In this document: piece by piece, positions 12,051-57,185 of the stretch
Position numbering within the stretch: the first letter of the stretch is position 1
Layout of the letters: each line of letters opens with the position of its first letter
Origin: Apostichopus japonicus
Taxonomy: Eukaryota > Echinodermata > Holothuroidea > Aspidochirotida > Stichopodidae
Assembly (NCBI RefSeq): GCF_037975245.1
Contig: NC_092582.1
Coordinates: 1,655,001-1,719,000 of the forward strand
Direction of reading: 5' to 3'
Length of the DNA stretch: 64,000 nucleotides
Position numbers and translations under genes: made by a program
Notes under the pieces: model-generated
Seen by the model: the letters and a program-made list of their open reading frames with translations, nothing else
What the model was told of the DNA's origin: nothing
Databases searched by the model: none

Positions 12051-13224
12051 ATTAGAAGGATTGAATTTAAGCCTTTTATACCCGCCCCGAGACTATAGCC
12101 ACTAGAGTACGTACGGCGATCATTCTCACAATTTTGCAAAGTTGGACGACATTCAACTCTTGACCACCTATATGGCTACTTATCCCATTAAACTAATGTT
12201 ATATGACGATATAGCGCAAACAACGTTTGACTTGAGAAGCTATACGGTAGCATATACGCCACATGATTGCCCCATTGACTGACGTACGCACACACGCTGA
12301 GAACCCGACTTGTCAACAAACCTCTTTACTCAGTATAGTAAACAATTTTCGTACGCTGCCATTGGGAAGCCTAAAAGTGGTCTAAAATTGCCTCAATCGA
12401 CGCATTTTTGGGCATCACATTTACTTCCCGTTGTGTACTCCGACATCCAAGCCACAAAAACAGCAGAGTTTGTTTGAGAACACATCAAGAAAGATGTTCT
12501 CCTGTTTCTTTTCGGCACTTTTCCTGAGGGAGAACACTCGTGCGTGAGTGCGTGCATGCGGAATGATACAGCCCTAGTGTAGGCTACATATATGCCACCA
12601 TAAAACTAAATATGACGCACTTTAAAAGTCGGGGCTAGTTTGCTTCCGCACGTACTCCACCTATATCTACTCAGTAGTGTAACGGAAATGTATCCCTTTA
12701 AGTAAATTGTTATTGCAATATTCGTTTTGGGATTGAGCGTTCCCTCAGTTCTACCCGTCGATGGCCCCTCTCCAAAAATGTGTATAGATTTTGCGAGTTA
12801 CAGGTGGGGACAGCCAATGAAAATCGTACCCCTGTTTGTTTATAAATCTTGCTGAATCAGCACCCGAATTTTGAGATGTTTCCCCTTGTTAGTGGTAGCG
12901 CAGATTGTTTTATTAGTTTTAGCTCACCACGCTCACGAGGTATTCCGAGATTGGCCCCTGGCGGAGAGAGAACTGAGAGAACCGCCTATATTCTATTTTT
13001 TTTTTTTTTTTTTTATTAGTTCAAGCAGCTGGACTTCGGGAGACACTGGTCAACGTTACACTACAATAGTCTCGAATAAAAGTTCGATATGGCAAGTCAG
13101 TGTCTTCAAGGGTGGTGGGGGTAGAATGCGTGAGGGGGGTGGGGGGCAGAAAATGACAGGACACAACAATAGTGACAGAGATAGAAACTGGGGTGCGGTT
13201 GTGGGTGAGGAAAAAAATGAAAAA

Positions 13225-13315
13225 GTCTACGGCACCTAGTATTCCCAGGCGGTCACCCATCCAAGTACTGACTAGGCTCGACGCTGCTTGACTTCGGTGA
13301 TCGGACGAGAACCGG
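13225..13315 (-). pseudogene. 5S rRNA gene, 3' part (nt 28-118), split by LINE copy 1
   Basis: 91 nt identical in layout to the intact genes, including the internal control region. The 5' part is displaced to 14223-14252 by the LINE poly(A) end at 13316. Confidence 0.93.
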
Positions 13316-14222
13316 TTTTTTTTTTTTTTTTTTTTTTTTTATTGACGGATGAACCCACTGGTTCTCCGATTGAATGTACAGATATTAACATGTTTACAAG
13401 AAATAAAGAAAGAGAATATATATAAAACTATAACAATAATACAACACTATCAATACAATCATGCACAACAATAAAAGAGTAATCCTAGAATGGGGAAGGC
13501 AAGAGAAAATTAACTGTCAAACTTGTACTCGTAGGAGCCATCTTCAAGAGGATTGAGAATGACGTCACCTTGAGTAAACAACTCCCAAAATGTAGAAATG
13601 TCTTTTTTCTTTACAAAATAGTGGAATAAGAAATCGATTTTCTTTCGTAGTGAATTATGAAAGAAGTTTTGAATATTAATGTGTTTTTCTCCGTTCAGGA
13701 GGCTAACACGAGTGGTCCAAACAACTTTTTTGAAAGTGTTTAGAATAAAATCAATCAAAATTGTCTCATGCCTCCTATGATTGAGTTCCATACCTAAGAT
13801 AGTTATTTGCCTCCATTTATCATTGTTGTTGATTTTACAGATTTTCTGAAGCTTCTTGATAATATCTCTCCAGAGAAGATTTACGGTTTTGCAATCGACA
13901 AAAAGATGCAAGACAGTTTCATTATGGTTCTTACATAAGGTACATAAAGGAGAATCAACTAGCTTAAAAAGATACAACTTATCGTTACAGAATAAAATAT
14001 TATGAAGAATACGGAAATCGAGGTCACTATCGTGAAAAGCTTTTAAACCTTTGTAGACATTGGTCCACCTATGTTCAAAAGAGACATCGTTAAAAACGTG
14101 TTTCCAGTGGATTTCGCCTTTTGGAATTGTTGAGACGGCCTCCCTTAGGAGATCAGTTGCATTCCTGACACTAACGGTGGACGCATCTAGAGTGGTGTCA
14201 CCACAAGAGAGGGTGAGTGAAA
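13316..14222 (-). mobile_element. 5S-targeted LINE, copy 1, strongly 5'-truncated
   Basis: 907 bp. The plus strand begins with a 25-base T run (poly(A) on the coding strand) next to 5S nucleotide 28, then the 3' UTR, then an uninterrupted frame from the junction to a stop at 13510. It encodes only the C-terminal part of the LINE protein including the CTLC...HLFVDC zinc-knuckle-like motif. Nucleotides 28-30 of the 5S gene (CCG) are present on both sides, a 3-bp target duplication. Confidence 0.93.
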
Positions 14223-14252
14223 CGGTATATTCAACGTGATATGGTCGTAGAC
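14223..14252 (-). pseudogene. 5S rRNA gene, 5' part (nt 1-30), split by LINE copy 1
   Basis: 30 nt of 5S including the duplicated CCG at the LINE junction. The upstream TATA-like box follows at the normal distance. Confidence 0.9.
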
Positions 14253-15435
14253 ATTAGAAGGATTGAATTTAAGCCTTTTATACCCGCCCCGAGACTATAG
14301 CCACTAGAGTACGTACGGCGATCATTCTCACAATTTTGCAAAGTTGGACGACATTCAACTCTTGACCACCTATATGGCTACTTATCCCATTAAACTAATG
14401 TTATATGACGATATAGCGCAAACAACGTTTGACTTGAGAAGCTATACGGTAGCATATACGCCACATGATTGCCCCATTGACTGACGTACGCACACACGCT
14501 GAGAACCCGACTTGTCAACAAACCTCTTTACTCAGTATAGTAAACAATTTTCGTACGCTGCCATTGGGAAGCCTAAAAGTGGTCTAAAATTGCCTCAATC
14601 GACGCATTTTTGGGCATCACATTTACTTCCCGTTGTGTACTCCGACATCCAAGCCACAAAAACAGCAGAGTTTGTTTGAGAACACATCAAGAAAGATGTT
14701 CTCCTGTTTCTTTTCGGCACTTTTCCTGAGGGAGAACACTCGTGCGTGAGTGCGTGCATGCGGAATGATACAGCCCTAGTGTAGGCTACATATATGCCAC
14801 CATAAAACTAAATATGACGCACTTTAAAAGTCGGGGCTAGTTTGCTTCCGCACGTACTCCACCTATATCTACTCAGTAGTGTAACGGAAATGTATCCCTT
14901 TAAGTAAATTGTTATTGCAATATTCGTTTTGGGATTGAGCGTTCCCTCAGTTCTACCCGTCGATGGCCCCTCTCCAAAAATGTGTATAGATTTTGCGAGT
15001 TACAGGTGGGGACAGCCAATGAAAATCGTACCCCTGTTTGTTTATAAATCTTGCTGAATCAGCACCCGAATTTTGAGATGTTTCCCCTTGTTAGTGGTAG
15101 CGCAGATTGTTTTATTAGTTTTAGCTCACCACGCTCACGAGGTATTCCGAGATTGGCCCCTGGCGGAGAGAGAACTGAGAGAACCGCCTATATTCTATTT
15201 TTTTTTTTTTTTTTTTTTTTTTTTTATTAGTTCAAGCAGCTGGACTTCGGGAGACACTGGTCAACGTTACACTACAATAGTCTCGAATAAAAGTTCGATA
15301 TGGCAAGTCAGTGTCTTCAAGGGTGGTGGGGGTAGAATGCGTGAGGGGGGTGGGGGGCAGAAAATGACAGGACACAACAATAGTGACAGAGATAGAAACT
15401 GGGGTGCGGTTGTGGGTGAGGAAAAAAATGAAAAA

Positions 15436-15526
15436 GTCTACGGCACCTAGTATTCCCAGGCGGTCACCCATCCAAGTACTGACTAGGCTCGACGCTGCTT
15501 GACTTCGGTGATCGGACGAGAACCGG
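15436..15526 (-). pseudogene. 5S rRNA gene, 3' part, split by LINE copy 2
   Basis: Nucleotides 28-118 of 5S, directly followed by the T run of LINE copy 2. Same breakpoint as in the other two split genes. Confidence 0.93.
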
Positions 15527-16582
15527 TTTTTTTTTTTTTTTTTTTTTTTTTTATTGACGGAAGAACCCACTGGTTCTCCGATTGAATGTACAGATATTAA
15601 CATGGTTACAAGAAATAAAGAAAGAGAATATATATAAAACTATAACAATAATACAACACTATCAATACAATCATGTACAACAATAAAAGAGTAATCCTAG
15701 AATGGGGAAGGCAAGAGAAAATTAACTGTCAAACTTGTACTCGTAGGAGCCATCTTCAAGAGGATTGAGAATGACGTCACCTTGAGTAAACAACTCCCAA
15801 AATGTAGAAATGTCTTTTTTTTTTACAAAATAGTGGAATAAGAAATCGATTTTCTTTCGTAGTGAATTATGAAAGAAGTTTTGAATATTAATGTGTTTTT
15901 CTCCGTTCAGGAGGCTAACACGAGTGGTCCAAACAACTCTTTTGAAAGTGTTTAGAATAAAATCAATCGAAATTGTCTCATGCCTCCTATGATTGAGTTC
16001 CATACCTAAGATAGTTATTTGCCTCCATTTATCATTGTTGTTGATTTTACAGATTTTCTGAAGCTTCTTGATAATATCTCTCCAGAGAAGATTTACGGTT
16101 TTGCAATCGACAAAAAGATGCAAGACAGTTTCATTATGGTTCTTACATAAGGTACATAAAGGAGAATCAACTAGCTTAAAAAGATACAGCTTATCGTTAC
16201 AGAATAAAATATTATGAAGAATACGGAAATCGAGGTCACTATCGTGAAAAGCTTTTAGACCTTTGTAGACATTGGTCCACCTATGTTCAAAAGAGATATC
16301 GTTAAAAACGTGTTTCCAGTGTATTTCTCCTTTTGGGATTGTTGAGACGGCCTCCCTTAGGAGATCAGTTGCATTCCTGACACTAACGGTGGACGCATCT
16401 AGCGTGGTGTCACCACAAGAGAGGGTGAGTGAAAGTGACTCATTGTCATTTTGACTGACAATTTTATCGCCCGAATAGATTTGTTCGAGCCAATCTTTTG
16501 GAAAAGCGTTCAAAATAGATGTGACGTAATCAAATACGTCATCAACATCAAGTTTACAATTTGGGTTGGCCATAGTAATGGC
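15527..16582 (-). mobile_element. 5S-targeted LINE, copy 2, 5'-truncated
   Basis: 1,056 bp with poly(A) against 5S nucleotide 28. The open frame (stop at 15722) runs uninterrupted to the 5' junction and reads on into 5S sequence. It covers the C-terminal third of the protein and differs from copy 3 by scattered substitutions (for example KRVVW for KKVVW). As in copy 1, a 3-bp CCG target duplication flanks it. Confidence 0.93.
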
Positions 16583-16612
16583 CGGTATATTCAACGTGAT
16601 ATGGTCGTAGAC
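16583..16612 (-). pseudogene. 5S rRNA gene, 5' part (nt 1-30), split by LINE copy 2
   Basis: 30 nt of 5S joined to the truncated LINE 5' end. One junction base could belong to either side. Confidence 0.9.
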
Positions 16613-17744
16613 ATTAGAAGGATTGAATTTAAGCCTTTTATACCCGCCCCGAGACTATAGCCACTAGAGTACGTACGGCGATCATTCTCACAATTTTGCA
16701 AAGTTGGACGACATTCAACTCTTGACCACCTATATGGCTACTTATCCCATTAAACTAATGTTATATGACGATATAGCGCAAACGACGTTTGACTTGAGAA
16801 GCTATACGGTAGCATATACGCCACATGATTGCCCCATTGACTGACGTACGCACACACGCTGAGAACCCGACTTGTCAACAAACCTCTTTACTCAGTATAG
16901 TAAACAATTTTCGTACGCTGCCATTGGGAAGCCTAAAAGTGGTCTAAAATTGCCTCAATCGACGCATTTTTGGGCATCACATTTACTTCCCGTTGTGTAC
17001 TCCGACATCCAAGCCACAAAAACAGCAGAGTTTGTTTGAGAACACATCAAGAAAGATGTTCTCCTGTTTCTTTTCGGCACTTTTCCTGAGGGAGAACACT
17101 CGTGCGTGAGTGCGTGCATGCGGAATGATACAGCCCTAGTGTAGGCTACATATATGCCACCATAAAACTAAATATGACGCACTTTAAAAGTCGGGGCTAG
17201 TTTGCTTCCGCACGTACTCCACCTATATCTACTCAGTAGTGTAACGGAAATGTATCCCTTTAAGTAAATTGTTATTGCAATATTCGTTTTGGGATTGAGC
17301 GTTCCCTCAGTTCTACCCGTCGATGGCCCCTCTCCAAAAATGTGTATAGATTTTGCGAGTTACAGGTGGGGACAGCCAATGAAAATCGTACCCCTGTTTG
17401 TTTATAAATCTTGCTGAATCAGCACCCGAATTTTGAGATGTTTCCCCTTGTTAGTGGTAGCGCAGATTGTTTTATTAGTTTTAGCTCACCACGCTCACGA
17501 GGTATTCCGAGATTGGCCCCTGGCGGAGAGAGAACTGAGAGAACCGCCTATATTCTATTTTTTTTTTTTTTTTTTTTTTATTAGTTCAAGCAGCTGGACT
17601 TCGGGAGACACTGGTCAACGTTACACTACAATAGTCTCGAATAAAAGTTCGATATGGCAAGTCAGTGTCTTCAAGGGTGGTGGGGGTAGAATGCGTGAGG
17701 GGGGTGGGGGGCAGAAAATGACAGGACACAACAATAGTGACAGA

Positions 17745-19679
17745 CAGTGGCGGAGAAACAGGGGGGTTGGGGGGGTTTTAACCCCCCCACTTTTTGAAGA
17801 GGGGGGGTTGGCCCACACAATCAACCCCCCCTAGTTTTTGCCAGTAATGTTCTGTTATAGCCTATGTTATGTGCTCCAAATGGCGTAATAAATCAAATTA
17901 TTAAATTTGAAATTGTTAAAGTCATTTCAACCTTGTACCTGGTAGGCTACATCAACAATTAACGACCGAAAACCGAGTTAGAATTGACCCACACATTATT
18001 TCTAGCCCCTGTCCCCCACCTTGCGCATTGGAACTTGTAGCTCATAGCGCCAACTTCACCCCACAACAGACATACACAAAATAACGTTTTGTTGCTGTTG
18101 AATAGCTTTGGAACTGTATACACTTGCCAACTTCAACGAGGTGAAGGAAGGAAAAGAAAAAGAAGAATGAGAGAAAAGGAGAAAAGGATGGAGTAGAAAA
18201 TACGGCAAGAAAACGGGAAGAGAAAGAGGAACAGTGACAAAATTATTCGAATTTGTAAAGCAAACAGCAGATATCACATCATATCATTGAGCATGAAAAT
18301 GGCGTTCCACGATAAACAGCCTCCAAACCATGGGCGCAGATCCTGGTGAGGACAGCAGGGCGCGTCCCCACCAACTTTTTTCAGTAGTGGGGACATGATA
18401 TACCGCGTCCCCACCAATTTGTCTTGACCAATAGCTGCATTTCAAGTTCCCCTGTATTGAACTTTGGCGCAGTTTGATCCAGCATTGTGCAAATGACATG
18501 CAGCAGTTCTCATTTTATTGTATTTTATCCACAGTTGTTAAATATAGGACGGAAATCGCTTTTGCGGCAGTCTATATTTGTTTTCTGGGAGAGGACCCCA
18601 GACCCATCGTATATACAAAAGTCTACTTGGATTATTTGTCCCCTGATTTTCTTTCTGCAGACGCCCATGTATTTCTCCAAACTAAATTTCTAAGCCATGA
18701 GATCTAAAACTTAAGGAGGTTTAGGAGCATCATTAGGTCTGGGAAGTGTTATTTCCGGCGATCTGGGAGGTATATTTGCCTAAAAAAAATCGTACGCTAC
18801 GCGCGAACCCATGGTCGCGCTCCGCTTAGATAGTGTCATAGAACAGACACGCGTCCCCACCATTATCCAAGACTGATCTGCGCCCATGCTCAAAACTGTC
18901 GATGTGTGTAGTGTTCGGTTTCGGAAATATCTGGTATATTTTTATTTCCTTCAACGAAATTTTTTAGTAGCCGTCTGAATTTTCGAAAATTCCCTAACCA
19001 ACATTCTTCATCATACTCGTGCAATTTTGACCCGTCTGTTAGGGTTTGAAGGAGGTTTTGCTATATCGGTTGTCCATAGATGATATTTTGTGCAACATTA
19101 TGGGTATGTTTTGAAGTGAATTTATTCACGAGAATTGTGAATTTTCAAATTCTGAACAGTGGGGCTGACGGATATTGTGGGCCGCGATGAAGAATCACCT
19201 ACAAAAGCAATGATCCACAGGATATGTGATGAAGTCGAACATGATGTGTGACTGGTGACGAAGTTATAGATGAGAAAATAAGTATTTGGAAAAACTTGGT
19301 TCTCAGGCAAAAGTGTACATCTGGTTGGTCATTTTCAAGCCCGAGAAGTGCCATTTCCGGTGATCTGGGGGTACCAAAACCAGAAATTTGCTTGTACGCT
19401 GCGCGCCAACCAATGGTGGCGCTCCGCTTAGATAGTAATACGCGCCCCCCCCCCCCGGGTTAGAAAATCCTGCATACGCCACTGGTTAAATGCAGCTTTT
19501 CAAGGCCTGGGCAGTGCCATTTCCTGCAATCTGGGAGGCAATATTTGCCAAAAAATTCTTGTGCACTTCGCGCCAACTTATGGTCGCGCTCCACTTAGAT
19601 AGTGAGCCAGCAGTTATGACTTTTTATTTCATCAATGGCCTGCAACCCCCCCACTTCTGACAAGAAATCTCCGCCACTG
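17745..19679. mobile_element. Non-autonomous hAT-type DNA transposon in the 5S spacer (copy 1)
   Basis: 1,935 bp bounded by inverted ends CAGTGGCGGAGA and TCTCCGCCACTG. It is flanked by an exact 8-bp duplication GTGACAGA (17737-17744 and 19680-19687); spacers without the element have this octamer once. 8-bp duplications and CAG(T/G)GGCGGA-type ends are hAT signatures. No transposase frame is present. It contains a second element at 18329-18888 and two degenerate copies of a roughly 105-bp module (19335-19445, 19497-19612). Confidence 0.9.
18329..18888. mobile_element. Small hAT-like element nested inside the first hAT (copy 1)
   Basis: 560 bp with perfect inverted ends CATGGGCGCAGATC / GATCTGCGCCCATG. 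Flanking octamers CTCCAAAC and CTCAAAAC agree at 7 of 8 bases. The motif GCGTCCCCACCA recurs near both ends. It has no coding capacity and is a MITE-like passenger that inserted into the outer element. Confidence 0.82.
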
Positions 19680-19732
19680 GTGACAGAGATAGAAACTGGG
19701 TTGCGGTTGTGGGTGAGGAAAAAAATGAAAAA

Positions 19733-19850
19733 GTCTACGGCACCTAGTATTCCCAGGCGGTCACCCATCCAAGTACTGACTAGGCTCGACGCTGCTTGAC
19801 TTCGGTGATCGGACGAGAACCGGTATATTCAACGTGATATGGTCGTAGAC
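19733..19850 (-). rRNA. 5S rRNA gene (uninterrupted)
   Basis: 118 nt, RNA-sense GTCTACGACC...CCGTAGAC; the two ends pair as helix I. It shows the conserved GGATGGGTGACCGCCTGG block (box C region) and AAGCAGCGTCGAGCC (box A region). TTTTT follows the 3' end as a Pol III terminator. It sits next to the hAT-bearing spacer. Confidence 0.95.
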
Positions 19851-20793
19851 ATTAGAAGGATTGAATTTAAGCCTTTTATACCCGCCCCGAGACTATAGCC
19901 ACTAGAGTACGTACGGCGATCATTCTCACAATTTTGCAAAGTTGGACGACATTCAACTCTTGACCACCTATATGGCTACTTATCCCATTAAACTAATGTT
20001 ATATGACGATATAGCGCAAACGACGTTTGACTTGAGAAGCTATACGGTAGCATATACGCCACATGATTGCCCCATTGACTGACGTACGCACACACGCTGA
20101 GAACCCGACTTGTCAACAAACCTCTTTACTCAGTATAGTAAACAATTTTCGTACGCTGCCATTGGGAAGCCTAATAGTGGTCTAAAATTGCCTCAATCGA
20201 CGCATTTTTGGGCATCACATTTACTTCCCGTTGTGTACTCCGACATCCAAGCCACAAAAACAGCAGAGTTTGTTTGAGAACACATCAAGAAAGATGTTCT
20301 CCTGTTTCTTTTCGGCACTTTTCCTGAGGGAGAACACTCGTGCGTGAGTGCGTGCATGCGGAATGATACAGCCCTAGTGTAGGCTACATATATGCCACCA
20401 TAAAACTAAATATGACGCACTTTAAAAGTCGGGGCTAGTTTGCTTCCGCACGTACTCCACCTATATCTACTCAGTAGTGTAACGGAAATGTATCCCTTTA
20501 AGTAAATTGTTATTGCAATATTCGTTTTGGGATTGAGCGTTCCCTCAGTTCTACCCGTCGATGGCCCCTCTCCAAAAATGTGTATAGATTTTGCGAGTTA
20601 CAGGTGGGGACAGCCAATGAAAATCGTACCCCTGTTTGTTTATAAATCTTGCTGAATCAGCACCCGAATTTTGAGATGTTTCCCCTTGTTAGTGGTAGCG
20701 CAGATTGTTTTATTAGTTTTAGCTCACCACGCTCACGAGGTATTCCGAGATTGGCCCCTGGCGGAGAGAGAACTGAGAGAACCGCCTATATTC

Positions 20794-20827
<34 letters not shown>

Positions 20828-21038
20828 TAGTTCAAGCAGCTGGACTTCGGGAGACACTGGTCAACGTTACACTACAATAGTCTCGAATAAAAGTTCGATA
20901 TGGCAAGTCAGTGTCTTCAAGGGTGGTGGGGGTAGAATGCGTGAGGGGGGTGGGGGGGGCAGAAAATGACAGGACACAACAATAGTGACAGAGATAGAAA
21001 CTGGGGGTGCGGTTGTGGGTGAGGAAAAAAATGAAAAA

Positions 21039-21127
21039 GTCTACGGCACCTAGTATTCCCAGGCGGTCACCCATCCAAGTACTGACTAGGCTCGACGCTG
21101 CTTGACTTCGGTGATCGGACGAGAACC

Positions 21128-21129
<2 letters not shown>
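21039..21129 (-). pseudogene. 5S rRNA gene, 3' part, split by LINE copy 3
   Basis: Nucleotides 28-118 of 5S, directly against the poly(A) of LINE copy 3. Confidence 0.93.
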
Positions 21130-21162
<33 letters not shown>

Positions 21163-24100
21163 TGACGGAAAAACCCACTGGTTCTCCGATTGAATGTACA
21201 GATATTAACATGGTTACAAGAAATAAAGAAAGAGAATATATGTAAAACTATAACAATAATACAACACTATCGATACAATCATGCACAACAATAAAAGAGT
21301 AATCCTAGATTGGGGAAGGCAAGAGAAAATTAACTGTCAAACTTGTACTCGTAGGAGCCATCTTCAAGAGGATTGAGAATGACGTCACCTTGAGTAAACA
21401 ACTCCCAAAATGTAGAAATTTCTTTTTTCTTTACAAAATAGTGGAATAAGAAATCGATTTTCTTTCGTAGTGAATTATGAAAGAAGTTTTGAATATTAAT
21501 GTGCTTTTCCCCGTTCAGGAGGCTAACACGAGTGGTCCAAACAACTTTTTTGAAAGTGTTTAGAATAAGATCAATCGAAATTGTCTCATGCCTCCTATGG
21601 TTAAGTTCCATACCTAAGAGAGTTATTTGCCTCCATTTATCATTGTTGTTGATTTTACAGATTTTCTGAAGCTTCTTGATAATATCTCCCCAGAGAAGAT
21701 TTACGGTTTTGCAATCGACAAAAAGATGCAAGACAGTTTCATTATGGTTCTTACATAAGGTACATAAAGGAGAGTCAACTAGCTTAAAAAGATACAACTT
21801 ATCGTTACAGAATAAAATATTATGAAGAAGACGGAAATCGAGGTCACTATCGTGAAAAGCTTTTAGACCTTTGTAGACATTGGTCCACCTATGTTCAAAA
21901 GAGACATCGTTAAAAACGTGTTTCCAGTGGATTTCGCCTTTTGGAATTGTTGAGACGGCCTCCCTTAGGAGATCAGTTGCATTCCTGACACTAACGGTGG
22001 ACGCATCTAGCGTGGTGTCACCACAAGAGAGGGTGAGTGAAAGTGACTCATTGTCATTTTGACTGACAATTTTATCGCCCGAATAGATTTGTTCGAGCCA
22101 ATCTTTTGGAAAAGCGTTCAAAATAGATGTGACGTAATCAAATACGTCATCAACATCAAGTTTACAATGTGGGTTGGCCATAGTAATGGCTTCATGGATA
22201 CCCTCTGCGGGAAGCCGTCTTGGGATCATTTCATACATAAGATCGCCTACAAAAAGTATACCACCTTCAATGAAATCTCTATTAAAGAGGGTTTCGTCAG
22301 TTTCATTTACAATAAATGGATTATGGAACAGCGGTTGCATAAGAATTTCTTCCCTGTTCACTGGAGGGCATAACTTTTTATCCGTTAACTTTTTCCAGGC
22401 ACTCAACAACTCATAATAATACGGTAAAAGTTTTCTCATAGAATTGCTATGAGGTAAAATACGAAATACGTGTAAACCTAGTTTCATATATTCATAATGG
22501 TTCAGAAAATAGAGCATTAAATCTTTTAACATCGGATTGATACTGTTGCTAAGTAGTTTACAGATGTACTTCATACGTAAAGCGTCTCTCTTTATAAAAA
22601 TGTCACAAAGGTTAAGGCCACCTTTGTCTACAGGTTGAAGAAGAACATTGTAGGATATGCCAGGTTTCTTACCTCCCCACATAAATTCGATAACACTTTC
22701 TTTCAAAGAGTCTCCTACCCATTTAGGGACCGGAATAATAGTAGCAAGATATGTCAGTCTTGAGACAACTAGAGAATTTACAACAAGAGCTCTGCCTTTA
22801 AAGGAGAGGTTCCGCCCTTTCCACCTCTTGAGAACATTGCAACAAGAGGCAGTCTTGGCTTTCCAGTTTTCTCTTTCAAGAGCATCCTTATCATTGCCGA
22901 TACAAACACCAAGCACTTCTATAAAATCGTTCCTAATCGGAAAATTGAACTCGTCTTTTCGTACTTTGCCTTTTCCGAGCACTAGTAACTCGGTTTTCTC
23001 TACATTACACTTAGAGCCAGAGGCGCCTTCATACAGGTTAATAACATTTTGTACGGACTTAACACTAGAAGTATCAGAGAGAAAGAAAGTGGTATCATCT
23101 GCATGTTGAAACATTTTAGCTTCATGATGCATAAACTTAATACCAACTATACTCTTACTTTTGTAAATAGCGTCATGAAATGGTTCAGCAGATAATACAT
23201 ATAAAATAGCAGAAATTGGACAACCCTGGCGAACCCCTCTCTGAATATGAAAAGCATCTGAAATATAACCATTGTGTTTAATACAGCCTTGAATATCGTT
23301 GTAGAGGATTTTAACCCAGTTAATTAAATTAGTACCGAAACCCATCCTTTGTAAAACATTAATAAGATATTCATGGTTTACTCGATCGAAGGCTTTTAAT
23401 TGATCAATTTTAAGAACATAGCCCTCCAGCTTGTTTTCGTTAACATAATTAATAATATTTCTCATAGCCAGAACATTGTCGGCAATATCTCTGCCGGGAA
23501 CACAACAGGTCTGATCACTAGAGACAAGGCAATTGATAACCCTAGAGATTCTATTGGCCAGGGCCTTTGTGATTATTTTGTAGTCTGTGTTCAAAAGACT
23601 AATCGGTCTCCAATTCTTAAGTTTTCTCAAATCCCCTTTCTTGGGTATCAAGGTAATTAGGCCTGTTTTCATAGATTTACACATTTCATTTGTGTTGTAA
23701 ATTTCTTTCGTCAGTTTGAGAAAAACCTCCCCCAATACATCCCAAAATTCCTTATAAAACTCAACAGTGAGTCCGTCTAAACCAGGGCTTTTACTCGACT
23801 CCATATCAAAAAGTGATTTTTGGAGTTCTGCAGCCGAAATGTCCCCCTCACATGACTGAGAATCAGGTTCGGACAACGTTTTAGAAAGCTGACTAAGTAG
23901 TACCTCCCTCTGAATACTCACTGACGGTTCTGCGGTGTACAGCGTTTTGTAAAATCTGGCCTGTTCGTGGATAATATCGTCTTGATCGTTAATGATCGCG
24001 CCCTCGTCGGTGAGAATCTGGCGCATTACTTTTTTGCTTTGTCGAGATTTTTCTAAATTGAGGAAAAATTTTGACGAACGTTCTCCTTCTTCGAACCACT

Positions 24101-24272
24101 TGATTCTCGATCTAAGCGCGGCTCCTCTGATATCTGCGCGGGTCGTCTCGTCTAGCTGAAATTCTAAATTCCGTAGCCTTGTAGTGTCGTAGTCTTGATA
24201 TTTTTGCGCTTTCGCCCTTTCGTGGTTGATTTGTTTCCTTAGTTTTCTTTGATGTGTACGCGAGAGTCTGCT
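21130..24272 (-). mobile_element. 5S-targeted LINE, copy 3, longest copy
   Basis: 3,143 bp from a 31-base T run (poly(A)) at 5S nucleotide 28 to an abrupt 5' junction with 5S nucleotide 27. No 5S base is lost or duplicated, unlike the 3-bp duplications at copies 1 and 2. The 5' end begins inside the coding frame, just upstream of the RT domain, so ORF1 and the expected apurinic-type endonuclease are missing. RT motifs and the C-terminal Cys/His motif place it in the L1/Tx1 group; insertion in 5S genes is the habit of the Mutsu-type Tx1 elements. Confidence 0.94.
21330..24272 (-). CDS. LINE ORF2 reverse transcriptase, N-terminally truncated but uninterrupted
   Basis: Open frame of about 980 codons ending in TAA. 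Counting from the TTG codon lying in 5S sequence: a basic N-terminal region 1-115; RT domain about 155-440 with NWRPISLLN (223-231), motif A KIDQLKAFDR (291-300), RQGCPIS (351-357) and catalytic HADD (393-396); then a long linker and CTLCKNHNETVLHLFVDC (840-857), the CCHC-like motif found near the end of many LINE ORF2 proteins. The protein would copy its own RNA at the nicked 5S target. The endonuclease is absent, and no native start codon is visible: the frame simply continues out of the 5S gene. Absence of stops or frameshifts suggests recent insertion. Confidence 0.93.
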   Translation of the reverse strand, partial: SRLSRTHQRKLRKQINHERAKAQKYQDYDTTRLRNLEFQLDETTRADIRGAALRSRIKWFEEGERSSKFFLNLEKSRQSKKVMRQILTDEGAIINDQDDIIHEQARFYKTLYTAEPSVSIQREVLLSQLSKTLSEPDSQSCEGDISAAELQKSLFDMESSKSPGLDGLTVEFYKEFWDVLGEVFLKLTKEIYNTNEMCKSMKTGLITLIPKKGDLRKLKNWRPISLLNTDYKIITKALANRISRVINCLVSSDQTCCVPGRDIADNVLAMRNIINYVNENKLEGYVLKIDQLKAFDRVNHEYLINVLQRMGFGTNLINWVKILYNDIQGCIKHNGYISDAFHIQRGVRQGCPISAILYVLSAEPFHDAIYKSKSIVGIKFMHHEAKMFQHADDTTFFLSDTSSVKSVQNVINLYEGASGSKCNVEKTELLVLGKGKVRKDEFNFPIRNDFIEVLGVCIGNDKDALERENWKAKTASCCNVLKRWKGRNLSFKGRALVVNSLVVSRLTYLATIIPVPKWVGDSLKESVIEFMWGGKKPGISYNVLLQPVDKGGLNLCDIFIKRDALRMKYICKLLSNSINPMLKDLMLYFLNHYEYMKLGLHVFRILPHSNSMRKLLPYYYELLSAWKKLTDKKLCPPVNREEILMQPLFHNPFIVNETDETLFNRDFIEGGILFVGDLMYEMIPRRLPAEGIHEAITMANPHCKLDVDDVFDYVTSILNAFPKDWLEQIYSGDKIVSQNDNESLSLTLSCGDTTLDASTVSVRNATDLLREAVSTIPKGEIHWKHVFNDVSFEHRWTNVYKGLKAFHDSDLDFRLLHNILFCNDKLYLFKLVDSPLCTLCKNHNETVLHLFVDCKTVNLLWGDIIKKLQKICKINNNDKWRQITLLGMELNHRRHETISIDLILNTFKKVVWTTRVSLLNGEKHINIQNFFHNSLRKKIDFLFHYFVKKKEISTFWELFTQGDVILNPLEDGSYEYKFDS

Positions 24273-24299
24273 TATATTCAACGTGATATGGTCGTAGAC
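24273..24299 (-). pseudogene. 5S rRNA gene, 5' part (nt 1-27), split by LINE copy 3
   Basis: 27 nt of 5S followed upstream by the spacer with its TATA-like box. The base variant AACGATTG just upstream is shared only with the unit at 27.5 kb. Confidence 0.92.
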
Positions 24300-25429: not shown

Positions 25430-27366
25430 CAGTGGCGGAGAAACAGGGGGGGTTGGGGGGGTTTTAACCCCCCCACTTTTTGAAGAGGGGGGGTTGGCCC
25501 ACACAATCAACCCCCCCTAGTTTTTGCCAGTAATGTTCTGTTATAGCCTATGTTATGTGCTCCAAATGGCGTAATAAATCAAATTATTAAATTTGAAATT
25601 GTTAAAGTCATTTCAACCTTGTACCTGGTAGGCTACATCAACAATTAACGACCGAAAACCGAGTTAGAATTGACCCACACATTATTTCTAGCCCCTGTCC
25701 CCCACCTTGCGCATTGGAACTTGTAGCTCATAGCGCCAACTTCACCCCACAACAGACATACACAAAATAACGTTTTGTTGCTGTTGAATAGCTTTGGAAC
25801 TGTATACACTTGCCAACTTCAACGAGGTGAAGGAAGGAAAAGAAAAAGAAGAATGAGAGAAAAGGAGAAAAGGATGGAGTAGAAAATACGGCAAGAAAAC
25901 GGGAAGAGAAAGAGGAACAGTGACAAAATTATTCGAATTTGTAAAGCAAACAGCAGATATCACATCATATCATTGAGCATGAAAATGGCGTTCCACGATA
26001 AACAGCCTCCAAACCATGGGCGCAGATCCTGGTGAGGACAGCAGGGCGCGTCCCCACCAACTTTTTTCAGTAGTGGGGACATGATATACCGCGTCCCCAC
26101 CAATTTGTCTTGACCAATAGCTGCATTTCAAGTTCCCCTGTATTGAACTTTGGCGCAGTTTGATCCAGCATTGTGCAAATGACATGCAGCAGTTCTCATT
26201 TTATTGTATTTTATCCACAGTTGTTAAATATAGGACGGAAATCGCTTTTGCGGCAGTCTATATTTGTTTTCTGGGAGAGGACCCCAGACCCATCGTATAT
26301 ACAAAAGTCTACTTGGATTATTTGTCCCCTGATTTTCTTTCTGCAGACGCCCATGTATTTCTCCAAACTAAATTTCTAAGCCATGAGATCTAAAACTTAA
26401 GGAGGTTTAGGAGCATCATTAGGTCTGGGAAGTGTTATTTCCGGCGATCTGGGAGGTATATTTGCCTAAAAAAAATCGTACGCTACGCGCGAACCCATGG
26501 TCGCGCTCCGCTTAGATAGTGTCATAGAACAGACACGCGTCCCCACCATTATCCAAGACTGATCTGCGCCCATGCTCAAAACTGTCGATGTGTGTAGTGT
26601 TCGGTTTCGGAAATATCTGGTATATTTTTATTTCCTTCAACGAAATTTTTTAGTAGCCGTCTGAATTTTCGAAAATTCCCTAACCAACATTCTTCATCAT
26701 ACTCGTGCAATTTTGACCCGTCTGTTAGGGTTTGAAGGAGGTTTTGCTATATCGGTTGTCCATAGATGATATTTTGTGCAACATTATGGGTATGTTTTGA
26801 AGTGAATTTATTCACGAGAATTGTGAATTTTCAAATTCTGAACAGTGGGGCTGACGGATATTGTGGGCCGCGATGAAGAATCACCTACAAAAGCAATGAT
26901 CCACAGGATATGTGATGAAGTCGAACATGATGTGTGACTGGTGACGAAGTTATAGATGAGAAAATAAGTATTTGGAAAAACTTGGTTCTCAGGCAAAAGT
27001 GTACATCTGGTTGGTCATTTTCAAGCCCGAGAAGTGCCATTTCCGGTGATCTGGGGGTACCAAAACCAGAAATTTGCTTGTACGCTGCGCGCCAACCAAT
27101 GGTGGCGCTCCGCTTAGATAGTAATACGCGCCCCCCCCCCCCCGGGTTAGAAAATCCTGCATACGCCACTGGTTAAATGCAGCTTTTCAAGGCCTGGGCA
27201 GTGCCATTTCCTGCAATCTGGGAGGCAATATTTGCCAAAAAATTCTTGTGCACTTCGCGCCAACTTATGGTCGCGCTCCACTTAGATAGTGAGCCAGCAG
27301 TTATGACTTTTTATTTCATCAATGGCCTGCAACCCCCCCACTTCTGACAAGAAATCTCCGCCACTG
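25430..27366. mobile_element. Non-autonomous hAT-type transposon in the 5S spacer (copy 2)
   Basis: 1,937 bp with the same ends, nested insertion and GTGACAGA duplication (25422-25429, 27367-27374) as the copy about 7,686 bp to the left. The only differences I see are lengths of G or C runs. Identical position in the spacer means one insertion multiplied by rDNA recombination, not two transpositions. Confidence 0.9.
26015..26574. mobile_element. Small hAT-like element nested in the outer hAT (copy 2)
   Basis: Same 560-bp element with the same 14-bp inverted ends and imperfect octamers as at 18329-18888, carried along when the unit was copied. Confidence 0.82.
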
Positions 27367-27419
27367 GTGACAGAGATAGAAACTGGGTTGCGGTTGTGGG
27401 TGAGGAAAAAAATGAAAAA

Positions 27420-27537
27420 GTCTACGGCACCTAGTATTCCCAGGCGGTCACCCATCCAAGTACTGACTAGGCTCGACGCTGCTTGACTTCGGTGATCGGA
27501 CGAGAACCGGTATATTCAACGTGATATGGTCGTAGAC
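27420..27537 (-). rRNA. 5S rRNA gene (uninterrupted)
   Basis: 118 nt, same sequence features as the other whole copies, with TTTTT after the 3' end. Its upstream region uniquely carries a duplicated TATA/GC block. Confidence 0.95.
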
Positions 27538-27557
27538 ATTAGAACGATTGAATTTAA

Positions 27558-27603
27558 GCCTTTTATACCCGCCCCGAGAAGCCTTTTATACCCGCCCCGA
27601 GAC
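27558..27603 (-). promoter_or_regulatory. Duplicated 23-bp TATA/GC-box block upstream of a 5S gene
   Basis: The plus-strand segment GCCTTTTATACCCGCCCCGA occurs twice with a period of 23 bases (from 27558 and 27581). The proximal TATAAAA lies at -24 to -30 from the 5S start as in the other units; the second lies 23 bases further upstream. Only this unit has it. Confidence 0.75.
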
Positions 27604-28733
27604 TATAGCCACTGGAGTACGTACGGCGATCATTCTCACAATTTTGCAAAGTTGGACGACATTCAACTCTTGACCACCTATATGGCTACTTATCCCATTA
27701 AACTAATGTTATATGACGATATAGCGCAAACAACGTTTGACTTGAGAAGCTATACGGTAGCATATACGCCACATGATTGCCCCATTGACTGACGTACGCA
27801 CACACGCTGAGAACCCGACTTGTCAACAAACCTCTTTACTCAGTATAGTAAACAATTTTCGTACGCTGCCATTGGGAAGCCTAAAAGTGGTCTAAAATTG
27901 CCTCAATCGACGCATTTTTGGGCATCACATTTACTTCCCGTTGTGTACTCCGACATCCAAGCCACAAAAACAGCAGAGTTTGTTTGAGAACACATCAAGA
28001 AAGATGTTCTCCTGTTTCTTTTCGGCACTTTTCCTGAGGGAGAACACTCGTGCGTGAGTGCGTGCATGCGGAATGATACAGCCCTAGTGTAGGCTACATA
28101 TATGCCACCATAAAACTAAATATGACGCACTTTAAAAGTCGGGGCTAGTTTGCTTCCGCACGTACTCCACCTATATCTACTCAGTAGTGTAACGGAAATG
28201 TATCCCTTTAAGTAAATTGTTATTGCAATATTCGTTTTGGGATTGAGCGTTCCCTCAGTTCTACCCGTCGATGGCCCCTCTCCAAAAATGTGTATAGATT
28301 TTGCGAGTTACAGGTGGGGACAGCCAATGAAAATCGTACCCCTGTTTGTTTATAAATCTTGCTGAATCAGCACCCGAATTTTGAGATGTTTCCCCTTGTT
28401 AGTGGTAGCGCAGATTGTTTTATTAGTTTTAGCTCACCACGCTCACGAGGTATTCCGAGATTGGCCCCTGGCGGAGAGAGAACTGAGAGAACCGCCTGTA
28501 TTCTATTTTTTTTTTTTTTTTTTTTTATTAGTTCAAGCAGCTGGACTTCGGGAGACACTGGTCAACGTTACACTAAAATAGTCTCGAATAAAAGTTCGAT
28601 ATGGCAAGTCAATGTCTTCAAGGGTGGTGGGGGTAGAATGCGTGAGGGGGGAGTGGGGGGCAGAAAATGACAGGACACAACAATAGTGACAGAGATAGAA
28701 ACTGGGGTGCGCTTGTGGGTGAGGAAAAAAATG

Positions 28734-28738
28734 AAAAA
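28734..28738 (-). terminator. Pol III terminator of 5S genes (representative)
   Basis: In RNA sense, five T residues follow the terminal GTAGAC directly, with a seven-T run a few bases on. The arrangement is the same in all units examined. Confidence 0.8.
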
Positions 28739-28856
28739 GTCTACGGCACCTAGTATTCCCAGGCGGTCACCCATCCAAGTACTGACTAGGCTCGACGCTG
28801 CTTGACTTCGGTGATCGGACGAGAACCGGTATATTCAACGTGATATGGTCGTAGAC
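28739..28856 (-). rRNA. 5S rRNA gene (core unit 1)
   Basis: 118-nt whole gene at the start of the regular 1,296-bp series; Pol III terminator T5, and a second T7, just downstream. Confidence 0.96.
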
Positions 28857-28879
28857 ATTGGAAGGATAGAATTTAAGCC

Positions 28880-28886
28880 TTTTATA
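28880..28886 (-). promoter_or_regulatory. TATA-like upstream element of 5S genes (representative)
   Basis: TATAAAA at -30 to -24 from the 5S start, preceded by a GGGGCGGG box. The same block occurs at the same distance in every unit, including those with split genes. Upstream TATA-like elements are known to help Pol III start at 5S genes in several animals; the role here is inferred. Confidence 0.65.
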
Positions 28887-30034
28887 CCCGCCCCGAGACT
28901 ATAGCCACTGGAGTACGTACGGCGATCATTCTCACAATTTTGCAAAGTTGGACGACATTCAACTCTTGACCACCTATATGGCTACTTATCCCATTAAACT
29001 AATGTTATATGACGATATAGCGCAAACAACGTTTGACTTGAGAAGCTATACGGTAGCATATACGCCACATGATTGCCCCATTGACTGACGTACGCACACA
29101 CGCTGAGAACCCGACTTGTCAACAAACCTCTTTACTCAGTATAGTAAACAATTTTCGTACGCTGCCATTGGGAAGCCTAAAAGTGGTCTAAAATTGCCTC
29201 AATCGACGCATTTTTGGGCATCACATTTACTTCCCGTTGTGTACTCCGACATCCAAGCCACAAAAACAGCAGAGTTTGTTTGAGAACACATCAAGAAAGA
29301 TGTTCTCCTGTTTCTTTTCGGCACTTTTCCTGAGGGAGAACACTCGTGCGTGAGTGCGTGCATGCGGAATGATACAGCCCTAGTGTAGGCTACATATATG
29401 CCACCATAAAACTAAATATGACGCACTTTAAAAGTCGGGGCTAGTTTGCTTCCGCACGTACTCCACCTATATCTACTCAGTAGTGTAACGGAAATGTATC
29501 CCTTTAAGTAAATTGTTATTGCAATATTCGTTTTGGGATTGAGCGTTCCCTCAGTTCTACCCGTCGATGGCCCCTCTCCAAAAATGTGTATAGATTTTGC
29601 GAGTTACAGGTGGGGACAGCCAATGAAAATCGTACCCCTGTTTGTTTATAAATCTTGCTGAATCAGCACCCGAATTTTGAGATGTTTCCCCTTGTTAGTG
29701 GTAGCGCAGATTGTTTTATTAGTTTTAGCTCACCACGCTCACGAGGTATTCCGAGATTGGCCCCTGGCGGAGAGAGAACTGAGAGAACCGCCTGTATTCT
29801 ATTTTTTTTTTTTTTTTTTTTTATTAGTTCAAGCAGCTGGACTTCGGGAGACACTGGTCAACGTTACACTAAAATAGTCTCGAATAAAAGTTCGATATGG
29901 CAAGTCAATGTCTTCAAGGGTGGTGGGGGTAGAATGCGTGAGGGGGGAGTGGGGGGCAGAAAATGACAGGACACAACAATAGTGACAGAGATAGAAACTG
30001 GGGTGCGCTTGTGGGTGAGGAAAAAAATGAAAAA

Positions 30035-30152
30035 GTCTACGGCACCTAGTATTCCCAGGCGGTCACCCATCCAAGTACTGACTAGGCTCGACGCTGCTTG
30101 ACTTCGGTGATCGGACGAGAACCGGTATATTCAACGTGATATGGTCGTAGAC
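30035..30152 (-). rRNA. 5S rRNA gene (core unit 2)
   Basis: Whole 118-nt gene exactly 1,296 bases from the previous one, with no visible change. Confidence 0.96.
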
Positions 30153-31330
30153 ATTGGAAGGATAGAATTTAAGCCTTTTATACCCGCCCCGAGACTATAG
30201 CCACTGGAGTACGTACGGCGATCATTCTCACAATTTTGCAAAGTTGGACGACATTCAACTCTTGACCACCTATATGGCTACTTATCCCATTAAACTAATG
30301 TTATATGACGATATAGCGCAAACAACGTTTGACTTGAGAAGCTATACGGTAGCATATACGCCACATGATTGCCCCATTGACTGACGTACGCACACACGCT
30401 GAGAACCCGACTTGTCAACAAACCTCTTTACTCAGTATAGTAAACAATTTTCGTACGCTGCCATTGGGAAGCCTAAAAGTGGTCTAAAATTGCCTCAATC
30501 GACGCATTTTTGGGCATCACATTTACTTCCCGTTGTGTACTCCGACATCCAAGCCACAAAAACAGCAGAGTTTGTTTGAGAACACATCAAGAAAGATGTT
30601 CTCCTGTTTCTTTTCGGCACTTTTCCTGAGGGAGAACACTCGTGCGTGAGTGCGTGCATGCGGAATGATACAGCCCTAGTGTAGGCTACATATATGCCAC
30701 CATAAAACTAAATATGACGCACTTTAAAAGTCGGGGCTAGTTTGCTTCCGCACGTACTCCACCTATATCTACTCAGTAGTGTAACGGAAATGTATCCCTT
30801 TAAGTAAATTGTTATTGCAATATTCGTTTTGGGATTGAGCGTTCCCTCAGTTCTACCCGTCGATGGCCCCTCTCCAAAAATGTGTATAGATTTTGCGAGT
30901 TACAGGTGGGGACAGCCAATGAAAATCGTACCCCTGTTTGTTTATAAATCTTGCTGAATCAGCACCCGAATTTTGAGATGTTTCCCCTTGTTAGTGGTAG
31001 CGCAGATTGTTTTATTAGTTTTAGCTCACCACGCTCACGAGGTATTCCGAGATTGGCCCCTGGCGGAGAGAGAACTGAGAGAACCGCCTGTATTCTATTT
31101 TTTTTTTTTTTTTTTTTTATTAGTTCAAGCAGCTGGACTTCGGGAGACACTGGTCAACGTTACACTAAAATAGTCTCGAATAAAAGTTCGATATGGCAAG
31201 TCAATGTCTTCAAGGGTGGTGGGGGTAGAATGCGTGAGGGGGGAGTGGGGGGCAGAAAATGACAGGACACAACAATAGTGACAGAGATAGAAACTGGGGT
31301 GCGCTTGTGGGTGAGGAAAAAAATGAAAAA

Positions 31331-31448
31331 GTCTACGGCACCTAGTATTCCCAGGCGGTCACCCATCCAAGTACTGACTAGGCTCGACGCTGCTTGACTT
31401 CGGTGATCGGACGAGAACCGGTATATTCAACGTGATATGGTCGTAGAC
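31331..31448 (-). rRNA. 5S rRNA gene (core unit 3)
   Basis: Whole 118-nt gene in the 1,296-bp series. Confidence 0.96.
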
Positions 31449-32626
31449 ATTGGAAGGATAGAATTTAAGCCTTTTATACCCGCCCCGAGACTATAGCCAC
31501 TGGAGTACGTACGGCGATCATTCTCACAATTTTGCAAAGTTGGACGACATTCAACTCTTGACCACCTATATGGCTACTTATCCCATTAAACTAATGTTAT
31601 ATGACGATATAGCGCAAACAACGTTTGACTTGAGAAGCTATACGGTAGCATATACGCCACATGATTGCCCCATTGACTGACGTACGCACACACGCTGAGA
31701 ACCCGACTTGTCAACAAACCTCTTTACTCAGTATAGTAAACAATTTTCGTACGCTGCCATTGGGAAGCCTAAAAGTGGTCTAAAATTGCCTCAATCGACG
31801 CATTTTTGGGCATCACATTTACTTCCCGTTGTGTACTCCGACATCCAAGCCACAAAAACAGCAGAGTTTGTTTGAGAACACATCAAGAAAGATGTTCTCC
31901 TGTTTCTTTTCGGCACTTTTCCTGAGGGAGAACACTCGTGCGTGAGTGCGTGCATGCGGAATGATACAGCCCTAGTGTAGGCTACATATATGCCACCATA
32001 AAACTAAATATGACGCACTTTAAAAGTCGGGGCTAGTTTGCTTCCGCACGTACTCCACCTATATCTACTCAGTAGTGTAACGGAAATGTATCCCTTTAAG
32101 TAAATTGTTATTGCAATATTCGTTTTGGGATTGAGCGTTCCCTCAGTTCTACCCGTCGATGGCCCCTCTCCAAAAATGTGTATAGATTTTGCGAGTTACA
32201 GGTGGGGACAGCCAATGAAAATCGTACCCCTGTTTGTTTATAAATCTTGCTGAATCAGCACCCGAATTTTGAGATGTTTCCCCTTGTTAGTGGTAGCGCA
32301 GATTGTTTTATTAGTTTTAGCTCACCACGCTCACGAGGTATTCCGAGATTGGCCCCTGGCGGAGAGAGAACTGAGAGAACCGCCTGTATTCTATTTTTTT
32401 TTTTTTTTTTTTTTATTAGTTCAAGCAGCTGGACTTCGGGAGACACTGGTCAACGTTACACTAAAATAGTCTCGAATAAAAGTTCGATATGGCAAGTCAA
32501 TGTCTTCAAGGGTGGTGGGGGTAGAATGCGTGAGGGGGGAGTGGGGGGCAGAAAATGACAGGACACAACAATAGTGACAGAGATAGAAACTGGGGTGCGC
32601 TTGTGGGTGAGGAAAAAAATGAAAAA

Positions 32627-32744
32627 GTCTACGGCACCTAGTATTCCCAGGCGGTCACCCATCCAAGTACTGACTAGGCTCGACGCTGCTTGACTTCGGT
32701 GATCGGACGAGAACCGGTATATTCAACGTGATATGGTCGTAGAC
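32627..32744 (-). rRNA. 5S rRNA gene (core unit 4)
   Basis: Whole 118-nt gene in the 1,296-bp series. Confidence 0.96.
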
Positions 32745-33922
32745 ATTGGAAGGATAGAATTTAAGCCTTTTATACCCGCCCCGAGACTATAGCCACTGGA
32801 GTACGTACGGCGATCATTCTCACAATTTTGCAAAGTTGGACGACATTCAACTCTTGACCACCTATATGGCTACTTATCCCATTAAACTAATGTTATATGA
32901 CGATATAGCGCAAACAACGTTTGACTTGAGAAGCTATACGGTAGCATATACGCCACATGATTGCCCCATTGACTGACGTACGCACACACGCTGAGAACCC
33001 GACTTGTCAACAAACCTCTTTACTCAGTATAGTAAACAATTTTCGTACGCTGCCATTGGGAAGCCTAAAAGTGGTCTAAAATTGCCTCAATCGACGCATT
33101 TTTGGGCATCACATTTACTTCCCGTTGTGTACTCCGACATCCAAGCCACAAAAACAGCAGAGTTTGTTTGAGAACACATCAAGAAAGATGTTCTCCTGTT
33201 TCTTTTCGGCACTTTTCCTGAGGGAGAACACTCGTGCGTGAGTGCGTGCATGCGGAATGATACAGCCCTAGTGTAGGCTACATATATGCCACCATAAAAC
33301 TAAATATGACGCACTTTAAAAGTCGGGGCTAGTTTGCTTCCGCACGTACTCCACCTATATCTACTCAGTAGTGTAACGGAAATGTATCCCTTTAAGTAAA
33401 TTGTTATTGCAATATTCGTTTTGGGATTGAGCGTTCCCTCAGTTCTACCCGTCGATGGCCCCTCTCCAAAAATGTGTATAGATTTTGCGAGTTACAGGTG
33501 GGGACAGCCAATGAAAATCGTACCCCTGTTTGTTTATAAATCTTGCTGAATCAGCACCCGAATTTTGAGATGTTTCCCCTTGTTAGTGGTAGCGCAGATT
33601 GTTTTATTAGTTTTAGCTCACCACGCTCACGAGGTATTCCGAGATTGGCCCCTGGCGGAGAGAGAACTGAGAGAACCGCCTGTATTCTATTTTTTTTTTT
33701 TTTTTTTTTTATTAGTTCAAGCAGCTGGACTTCGGGAGACACTGGTCAACGTTACACTAAAATAGTCTCGAATAAAAGTTCGATATGGCAAGTCAATGTC
33801 TTCAAGGGTGGTGGGGGTAGAATGCGTGAGGGGGGAGTGGGGGGCAGAAAATGACAGGACACAACAATAGTGACAGAGATAGAAACTGGGGTGCGCTTGT
33901 GGGTGAGGAAAAAAATGAAAAA

Positions 33923-34040
33923 GTCTACGGCACCTAGTATTCCCAGGCGGTCACCCATCCAAGTACTGACTAGGCTCGACGCTGCTTGACTTCGGTGATC
34001 GGACGAGAACCGGTATATTCAACGTGATATGGTCGTAGAC
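33923..34040 (-). rRNA. 5S rRNA gene (core unit 5)
   Basis: Whole 118-nt gene in the 1,296-bp series. Confidence 0.96.
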
Positions 34041-35218
34041 ATTGGAAGGATAGAATTTAAGCCTTTTATACCCGCCCCGAGACTATAGCCACTGGAGTAC
34101 GTACGGCGATCATTCTCACAATTTTGCAAAGTTGGACGACATTCAACTCTTGACCACCTATATGGCTACTTATCCCATTAAACTAATGTTATATGACGAT
34201 ATAGCGCAAACAACGTTTGACTTGAGAAGCTATACGGTAGCATATACGCCACATGATTGCCCCATTGACTGACGTACGCACACACGCTGAGAACCCGACT
34301 TGTCAACAAACCTCTTTACTCAGTATAGTAAACAATTTTCGTACGCTGCCATTGGGAAGCCTAAAAGTGGTCTAAAATTGCCTCAATCGACGCATTTTTG
34401 GGCATCACATTTACTTCCCGTTGTGTACTCCGACATCCAAGCCACAAAAACAGCAGAGTTTGTTTGAGAACACATCAAGAAAGATGTTCTCCTGTTTCTT
34501 TTCGGCACTTTTCCTGAGGGAGAACACTCGTGCGTGAGTGCGTGCATGCGGAATGATACAGCCCTAGTGTAGGCTACATATATGCCACCATAAAACTAAA
34601 TATGACGCACTTTAAAAGTCGGGGCTAGTTTGCTTCCGCACGTACTCCACCTATATCTACTCAGTAGTGTAACGGAAATGTATCCCTTTAAGTAAATTGT
34701 TATTGCAATATTCGTTTTGGGATTGAGCGTTCCCTCAGTTCTACCCGTCGATGGCCCCTCTCCAAAAATGTGTATAGATTTTGCGAGTTACAGGTGGGGA
34801 CAGCCAATGAAAATCGTACCCCTGTTTGTTTATAAATCTTGCTGAATCAGCACCCGAATTTTGAGATGTTTCCCCTTGTTAGTGGTAGCGCAGATTGTTT
34901 TATTAGTTTTAGCTCACCACGCTCACGAGGTATTCCGAGATTGGCCCCTGGCGGAGAGAGAACTGAGAGAACCGCCTGTATTCTATTTTTTTTTTTTTTT
35001 TTTTTTATTAGTTCAAGCAGCTGGACTTCGGGAGACACTGGTCAACGTTACACTAAAATAGTCTCGAATAAAAGTTCGATATGGCAAGTCAATGTCTTCA
35101 AGGGTGGTGGGGGTAGAATGCGTGAGGGGGGAGTGGGGGGCAGAAAATGACAGGACACAACAATAGTGACAGAGATAGAAACTGGGGTGCGCTTGTGGGT
35201 GAGGAAAAAAATGAAAAA

Positions 35219-39671: not shown

Positions 39672-57185
<17,514 letters not shown>

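Follow-up and report, generated by a model that had tools for sequence, protein, structure and literature searches.

Site-specific LINE insertions in 5S rRNA genes of Apostichopus japonicus, and sister families at fixed positions of satellite repeats

RESULTS

Three LINE copies share a 3' junction within 5S rRNA genes

We analyzed 64,000 nucleotides of Apostichopus japonicus DNA (contig NC_092582.1, here C22; the whole stretch, C22:1655001-1719000, is referred to as the window), which carries on its minus strand an array of 5S ribosomal RNA (rRNA) genes (Rfam RF00001). Three of these genes are interrupted by copies (A, B, and C) of a long interspersed nuclear element (LINE) family that we call F1. 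Genome-wide searches covered 671,581,487 bases in 35 contigs of one genome and one assembly. Alignment of the 119-nucleotide (nt) 5S sequence to the window by BLAST returned three split genes (Table 1), in which all three LINE copies are in sense orientation to the 5S gene and each poly(A) tract abuts 5S nt 28. Because nt 27 is an A, indistinguishable from poly(A), the 3' junction was taken as nt 28 in all three copies. A first-pass annotation of the window had described sense-oriented copies with poly(A) against nt 28 and lengths of 907, 1,056, and 3,143 base pairs (bp); BLAST of the window returned the same arrangement and the same lengths. Its further placing of the copies at one and the same base is right at the 3' junction but not at the 5' junctions, which fall at 5S nt 30, 31, and 27 in copies A, B, and C, so that 3, 4, and 0 bp, respectively, are duplicated. 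The three same-site insertions are thereby confirmed as real. No LINE-body sequence beyond copies A to C was detected by BLAST in the 64-kb window, the remaining matches being spacer poly(T) tracts. Partial 5S remnants are present at both edges of the array (window 11991-12050 and 37243-37289).

Table 1. Features of the 5S array and of its LINE insertions (window coordinates)
Feature	Position	Strand	Remarks
Split gene A	5S nt 1-30 at 14223-14252 + nt 27-119 at 13224-13316	-	BLAST
Split gene B	5S nt 1-31 at 16582-16612 + nt 27-119 at 15435-15527	-	BLAST
Split gene C	5S nt 1-27 at 24273-24299 + nt 27-119 at 21038-21130	-	BLAST
5S part following copy A (nt 28-119)	13224..13315	-	100% identity
LINE copy A (F1), 5'-truncated	13316..14222	-	Poly(A) at 13316-13340; 97.9% identity with copy C (907 positions)
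5S part preceding copy A (nt 1-30)	14223..14252	-	CCG duplicated
5S part following copy B (nt 28-119)	15435..15526	-	BLAST
LINE copy B (F1), 5'-truncated	15527..16581	-	97.8% identity with copy C (1,056 positions)
5S part preceding copy B (nt 1-31)	16582..16612	-	CCGG duplicated
Transposon, presumably hAT-like, copy 1, spacer	17745..19679		8-bp duplication GTGACAGA
Intact 5S gene between LINE-bearing units	19732..19850	-	Rfam 108.5 bits
5S part following copy C (nt 28-119)	21038..21129	-	BLAST
LINE copy C (F1), 5'-truncated	21130..24272	-	ORF2 present from ahead of the RT domain through its stop at 21330
zf-RVT of copy C	21690..21893	-	26.9 bits; position derived from residue range
RVT_1 domain of copy C	22932..23648	-	Pfam E 3.9e-34; position derived from residue range
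5S part preceding copy C (nt 1-27)	24273..24299	-	Zero duplication
Transposon, presumably hAT-like, copy 2, same spacer position	25430..27366		Aligned to copy 1 over 1,935 positions with 0 mismatches; 2 gap columns
Eight intact 5S genes	27419..36632	-	The 1,296-bp repeat units at 28738-36513 are identical
ORF, open reading frame; RT, reverse transcriptase.

The window copies arose by separate insertions

Unequal exchange or gene conversion might have spread a single insertion through the array, with its copies later diverging or losing their 5' parts. Exchange does take place in such arrays: the spacers of two LINE-bearing units, B and C, hold a mismatch-free duplicate of a transposon, which we take to be hAT-like from its 8-bp duplication (GTGACAGA) and its ends (CAGTGGCGG/CCGCCACTG), and two pairs of F1 loci outside the window (L012/L013 and L015/L016) resemble array duplicates. 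The transposon pair served as an internal control for array exchange. More specifically, its 0 mismatches over 1,935 positions indicate that the B and C units were recently exchanged, yet the adjacent LINEs differ at 23/1,029 positions (2.2%) and in their 5' ends, which identifies them as separate insertions rather than array copies. The other pairs differ likewise (A-C, 19/882 positions; A-B, 13/882), and among the five F1 loci compared, copy A is closest to L012 (13 differences in 882). All three copies have unlike 5' ends, each adjoining the 5' part of a 5S gene, and their poly(A) tracts are of unequal length (24, 25, and 30). In addition, copy C matches a full-length copy on another chromosome (C8:38366501-38373995) in 3,112 of 3,112 bases, poly(A) excluded. 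The 5' ends, the LINE divergence set against transposon identity, and the C8 match rule out array copying for the window trio, and we regard it as very improbable as an account of the system; separate insertion had also been proposed in the first-pass annotation. The perfect match of 3,112 bases between two chromosomes points to recent activity, such that the system could be tested in the living animal.

F1 occupies the 5S site throughout the genome

To collect 5S/LINE junctions, we searched the genome with a 25-base poly(A)+5S pattern (≤2 mismatches), using the reversed pattern as a control. The junction was found at 28 places on C8, C17, and C22 (18 exact, 6 with one mismatch, and 4 with two) versus 2 for the control, which excludes chance. 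By BLAST, 15 of these belong to F1, the others including members of related families described below (4 F2, 4 F5-like, 2 F4-like, and 1 F3-like). At loci L057 and L062 the DNA-level match is confined to the tail, and the L062 protein is that of a diverged relative; loci L063, L064, and L066 retain TA before CCGG and hence lie ~2 nt off the 5S site. A 771-bp probe from the F1 3' end recovered 15 copies at 95-100% identity and a sixteenth, split into two pieces, at 84%. Every one of the 16 F1 3' ends detected is at the 5S site: 15 are in the junction list, and the 84% copy adjoins a degenerate 5S sequence. There was no sign of the predominance of copies outside 5S genes that would have spoken against the first-pass proposal. 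The protein search of the genome scored 47 of 4,360 candidates, with 50 matches listed, and therefore provides a lower bound.

Intact 38-mer 5S targets number 468 in the genome, and 5S units are of three types, i.e., ~853 bp (C8), 1,296 bp (window), and ~195 bp with a different 5S sequence (C17). F1 is present in all three settings and in both 5S sequence types. On C17, near 17.1-17.4 and 22.6-23.6 Mb, a 195-bp satellite contains a whole 5S-like sequence of a type unlike that of the C8 and C22 genes. Tandem arrays assemble poorly, and recombination within poly(A) could in principle yield sister-type copies at the 5S site, which raises the question of an assembly or recombination artifact. Against this, the same junction recurs on three chromosomes and in three 5S unit types (853, 1,296, and 195 bp), and it was reached by several LINE families; we accordingly reject an artifact for the window trio and give the idea next to no credence overall. 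These data support site-specific insertion by F1.

Structure of full-length F1

The full-length copy that the first-pass annotation had suggested looking for, complete with its endonuclease, was found. Full-length F1 measures 5.36 kb and has two open reading frames (ORFs). Loci L067 and L010 share the order 5S nt 1-38, ORF1 (388 amino acids [aa]), ORF2 (1,303 aa), a short 3' untranslated region, poly(A), and 5S nt 28-119. ORF1 matches Pfam zf-CCHC (29.9 bits), and three CCHC motifs are apparent by eye. In ORF2 of the full-length copy, an Exo_endo_phos domain (Pfam E 2.4e-13) spans residues 28-249, and Exo_endo_phos_2 scores slightly below its Pfam cut-off. The reverse transcriptase (RT) domain RVT_1 was detected at Pfam E 6.2e-34 in this copy and 3.9e-34 in copy C, and zf-RVT (cut-off 27.5 bits) reached 29.5 bits in copy B. 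A search of viral contigs with ORF2 returned no match.

At the 5' side, eight distinct junctions end at 5S nt 38, corresponding to an 11-bp duplication (CCGGTTCTCGT); four are from F1, three from F2, and one from a truncated F1. Their distinctness was worked out from coordinates; some of the copies are array duplicates. In one case, the full-length copy on C8 (L067:773-830), an additional 5S piece (~nt 17-38) precedes the 5' end; its RNA perhaps started in 5S sequence upstream.

Sister families use 5S genes or satellites and share a 3' hairpin

F2 is a second 5S family, with ~50% aa identity to F1 and the same target nucleotide. F2 and the five further families F3 to F7 lie 45-60% apart in ORF2. 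F3, F5, and F6 each terminate at a set position of a 165-bp tandem satellite (satellite 1), F3 four bases from F5 and F6, and F4 and F7 do so in a second tandem satellite. At L021 and L036, where the 5' flanks are sequenced, satellite lies on either side. Among 94 sister-type 3' ends (control, 0), 39 and 12 fall at two satellite 1 positions, 7 at 5S, and 2 at satellite 2 (matched by hand), with 34 unassigned; F7 was left out of this count as its tails differ. Copies are clustered in certain stretches (14 of 16 on C12 within 14.78-17.59 Mb). A 39-mer of satellite 1 was found 47,875 times when ≤2 mismatches were allowed. We considered a tRNA-like origin of this satellite on account of a B-box-like motif (GGTTCGAACCCC) and rejected it, as ARAGORN predicted 0 tRNA genes in the typed units; nor was there an Rfam match at E 0.1 in L022, L030, and L038. 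A centromeric location of satellite 1 is a guess on our part; were it correct, a site-specific LINE system would reside in centromeres.

An unrooted tree without outgroup separated F1+F2 from F3 to F7 (100/100) and grouped F4+F7 (96/96), F5+F6 (98/99), and F3 with F5+F6 (83/86). With human L1 as the root, whose branch exceeds 7 changes per site, the backbone collapsed and F5 joined F3 (81/77), and we therefore claim no direction of target switching. Because the tree is unrooted, the backbone collapses, and F1-F2 identity (50%) is not above F1-F3 identity (52%), F1 and F2 are not necessarily sisters.

All seven families have a common 3'-terminal hairpin with covariation. Fourteen 3' ends can be folded into a hairpin of 7 bp with four loop bases and are 98.0% paired, versus 25-53% in slid controls, with 13 double-change cells and a covariation of 0.485. 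None of 500 shuffles scored as high in pairing and in double-change cells, and likewise none of 500 reached the covariation value.

On C17, F3-, F4-, and F5-like copies lie at the 5S site or ~2 nt from it. Tentatively, and with more doubt than confidence, we suggest that one LINE clade may have split its targets among 5S and two satellites with no loss of single-nucleotide precision or of the 3' hairpin. Under such a split, the C17 copies would make the target switches recent and repeated, and the switches were possibly aided by the 195-bp 5S-derived satellite of C17.

Other features of the window and genome

A 97-bp tandem repeat (window 2661-6925; 44 copies at 98%) lies between exons resembling CAP-family genes (Pfam CAP), and a flavin amine oxidase-like gene has exons downstream of the 5S array (39672-43298 and 53500-53895). 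Elsewhere, COX1 on C35 has 11 internal TGA codons, and the adjoining frames resemble nad4L and cox2. This COX1 has nine AAA codons at sites that are asparagine in other animals and ATA at isoleucine sites, as in genetic code table 9. Both the code and the order of these genes are traits of echinoderms and suggest an echinoderm host; the code is also that of flatworms. At C29:14745-31219, several COX1-like matches, broken and with TGA codons, perhaps mark a second mitochondrial-like contig.

DISCUSSION

F1 is very probably a 5S rRNA gene-specific, L1-like retrotransposon of the kind without long terminal repeats (non-LTR), most likely of the Tx1 clade, which would insert by nick-primed reverse transcription with hairpin-aided choice of RNA. 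The positions, truncations, duplications, domains, genome-wide target use, and hairpin covariation were observed; regarding the order of nicking and the role of the hairpin, we infer the following course. The apurinic/apyrimidinic (AP)-type endonuclease of F1 would nick the 5S antisense strand between nt 28 and 27, and the freed 3' end would prime reverse transcription of the F1 poly(A) RNA, which the RT may pick partly through its 3'-terminal hairpin. The sense strand would mostly be cut after nt 38, giving the 11-bp duplication, and reverse transcription halting early could leave 5'-truncated copies such as A to C. Tandem 5S arrays presumably tolerate the resulting gene losses.

Several points weigh against this interpretation. 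zf-RVT falls slightly below its cut-off of 27.5 bits in copy C (26.9) and in full-length ORF2 (26.5). The hairpin pairs with double changes number 3, a value equalled by 52 of 500 shuffles. As L012/L013 and L015/L016 are array duplicates, the 16 F1 copies do not represent 16 events, and the evidence comes from one genome and one assembly. Finally, the clade is named by analogy, the RT having been compared with human L1 and R2.

We infer Tx1 membership as the most likely placement. ORF1 proteins with CCHC zinc knuckles are a feature of the Tx1 clade. Among solved proteins, the closest to the F1 RT is human L1 ORF2p (E 8.5e-62 to 7.5e-61), R2 scoring 9.6e-20 or worse. F1 could instead be a 5S-specific member of another clade with an AP endonuclease (APE), or an L1 that has lost its randomness, its Tx1 likeness being convergent. 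Such a placement would be compatible with a comparison limited to human L1 and R2, with the 26-30% identity of F1 to human L1 across the RT region, and with the Jockey-like label given to a 5S-associated LINE of Tribolium in the excerpted text of PMC11202950. Nevertheless, L1 scores far above R2, PMC4640811 and PMC13295347 assign site-specific LINEs of the APE type to the Tx1 and R1 clades, and PMC3706591 names Mutsu for 5S, and we therefore consider a placement outside Tx1 unlikely.

LINEs specific for 5S are already known from Mutsu. What is new here is a second 5S family on the same nucleotide and five sister families at fixed satellite positions. Our literature search, which did not extend to Repbase and key papers, found no report of this 5S/satellite LINE system, nor of satellite-targeting sister families like these. 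Seven related families in one genome offer a natural comparison, in which the unlike families F1 and F2 have either converged on a single 5S nucleotide or retained it, and the other five use fixed positions of two satellites. It allows one to ask which endonuclease residues change with the target, and whether LINEs follow RNA polymerase III genes or satellites.

Mutsu of zebrafish is described, in the text seen of the respective sources, as a 5S-specific non-LTR retrotransposon (PMC3706591) of ~5,500 bp with two ORFs (PMC11202950). Compared by description only, it resembles F1 (5.36 kb) in target, ORF number, and size, and differs in host group; differing zebrafish 5S types are said to give differing target sites (PMC5513064, in part), whereas F1 sits in both 5S sequence types. 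In Tribolium freemani, Jockey-like LINEs occur regularly within 5S arrays (PMC11202950); they are tied to satellite/5S arrays, and the excerpt describes no fixed in-gene nucleotide such as that of F1. Human LINE-1 ORF2p is the best solved-structure match to F1 over the RT region (E 2.7e-61); L1 has only a weak site preference according to PMC13295347. R2, which is specific for 28S genes, shares with F1 an rRNA gene target, target-primed reverse transcription, and 5' truncation, but its proteins match far worse, and in F1 an APE-type endonuclease precedes the RT. Members of the Tx1 clade (Keno and Dewa) are described, in the portion consulted of PMC4640811, as combining an APE-type endonuclease with a strict choice of multicopy targets. 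By description, F1 has this endonuclease type in common with them, and its RT is L1-like; its sister families differ from that clade in targeting two satellite repeats.

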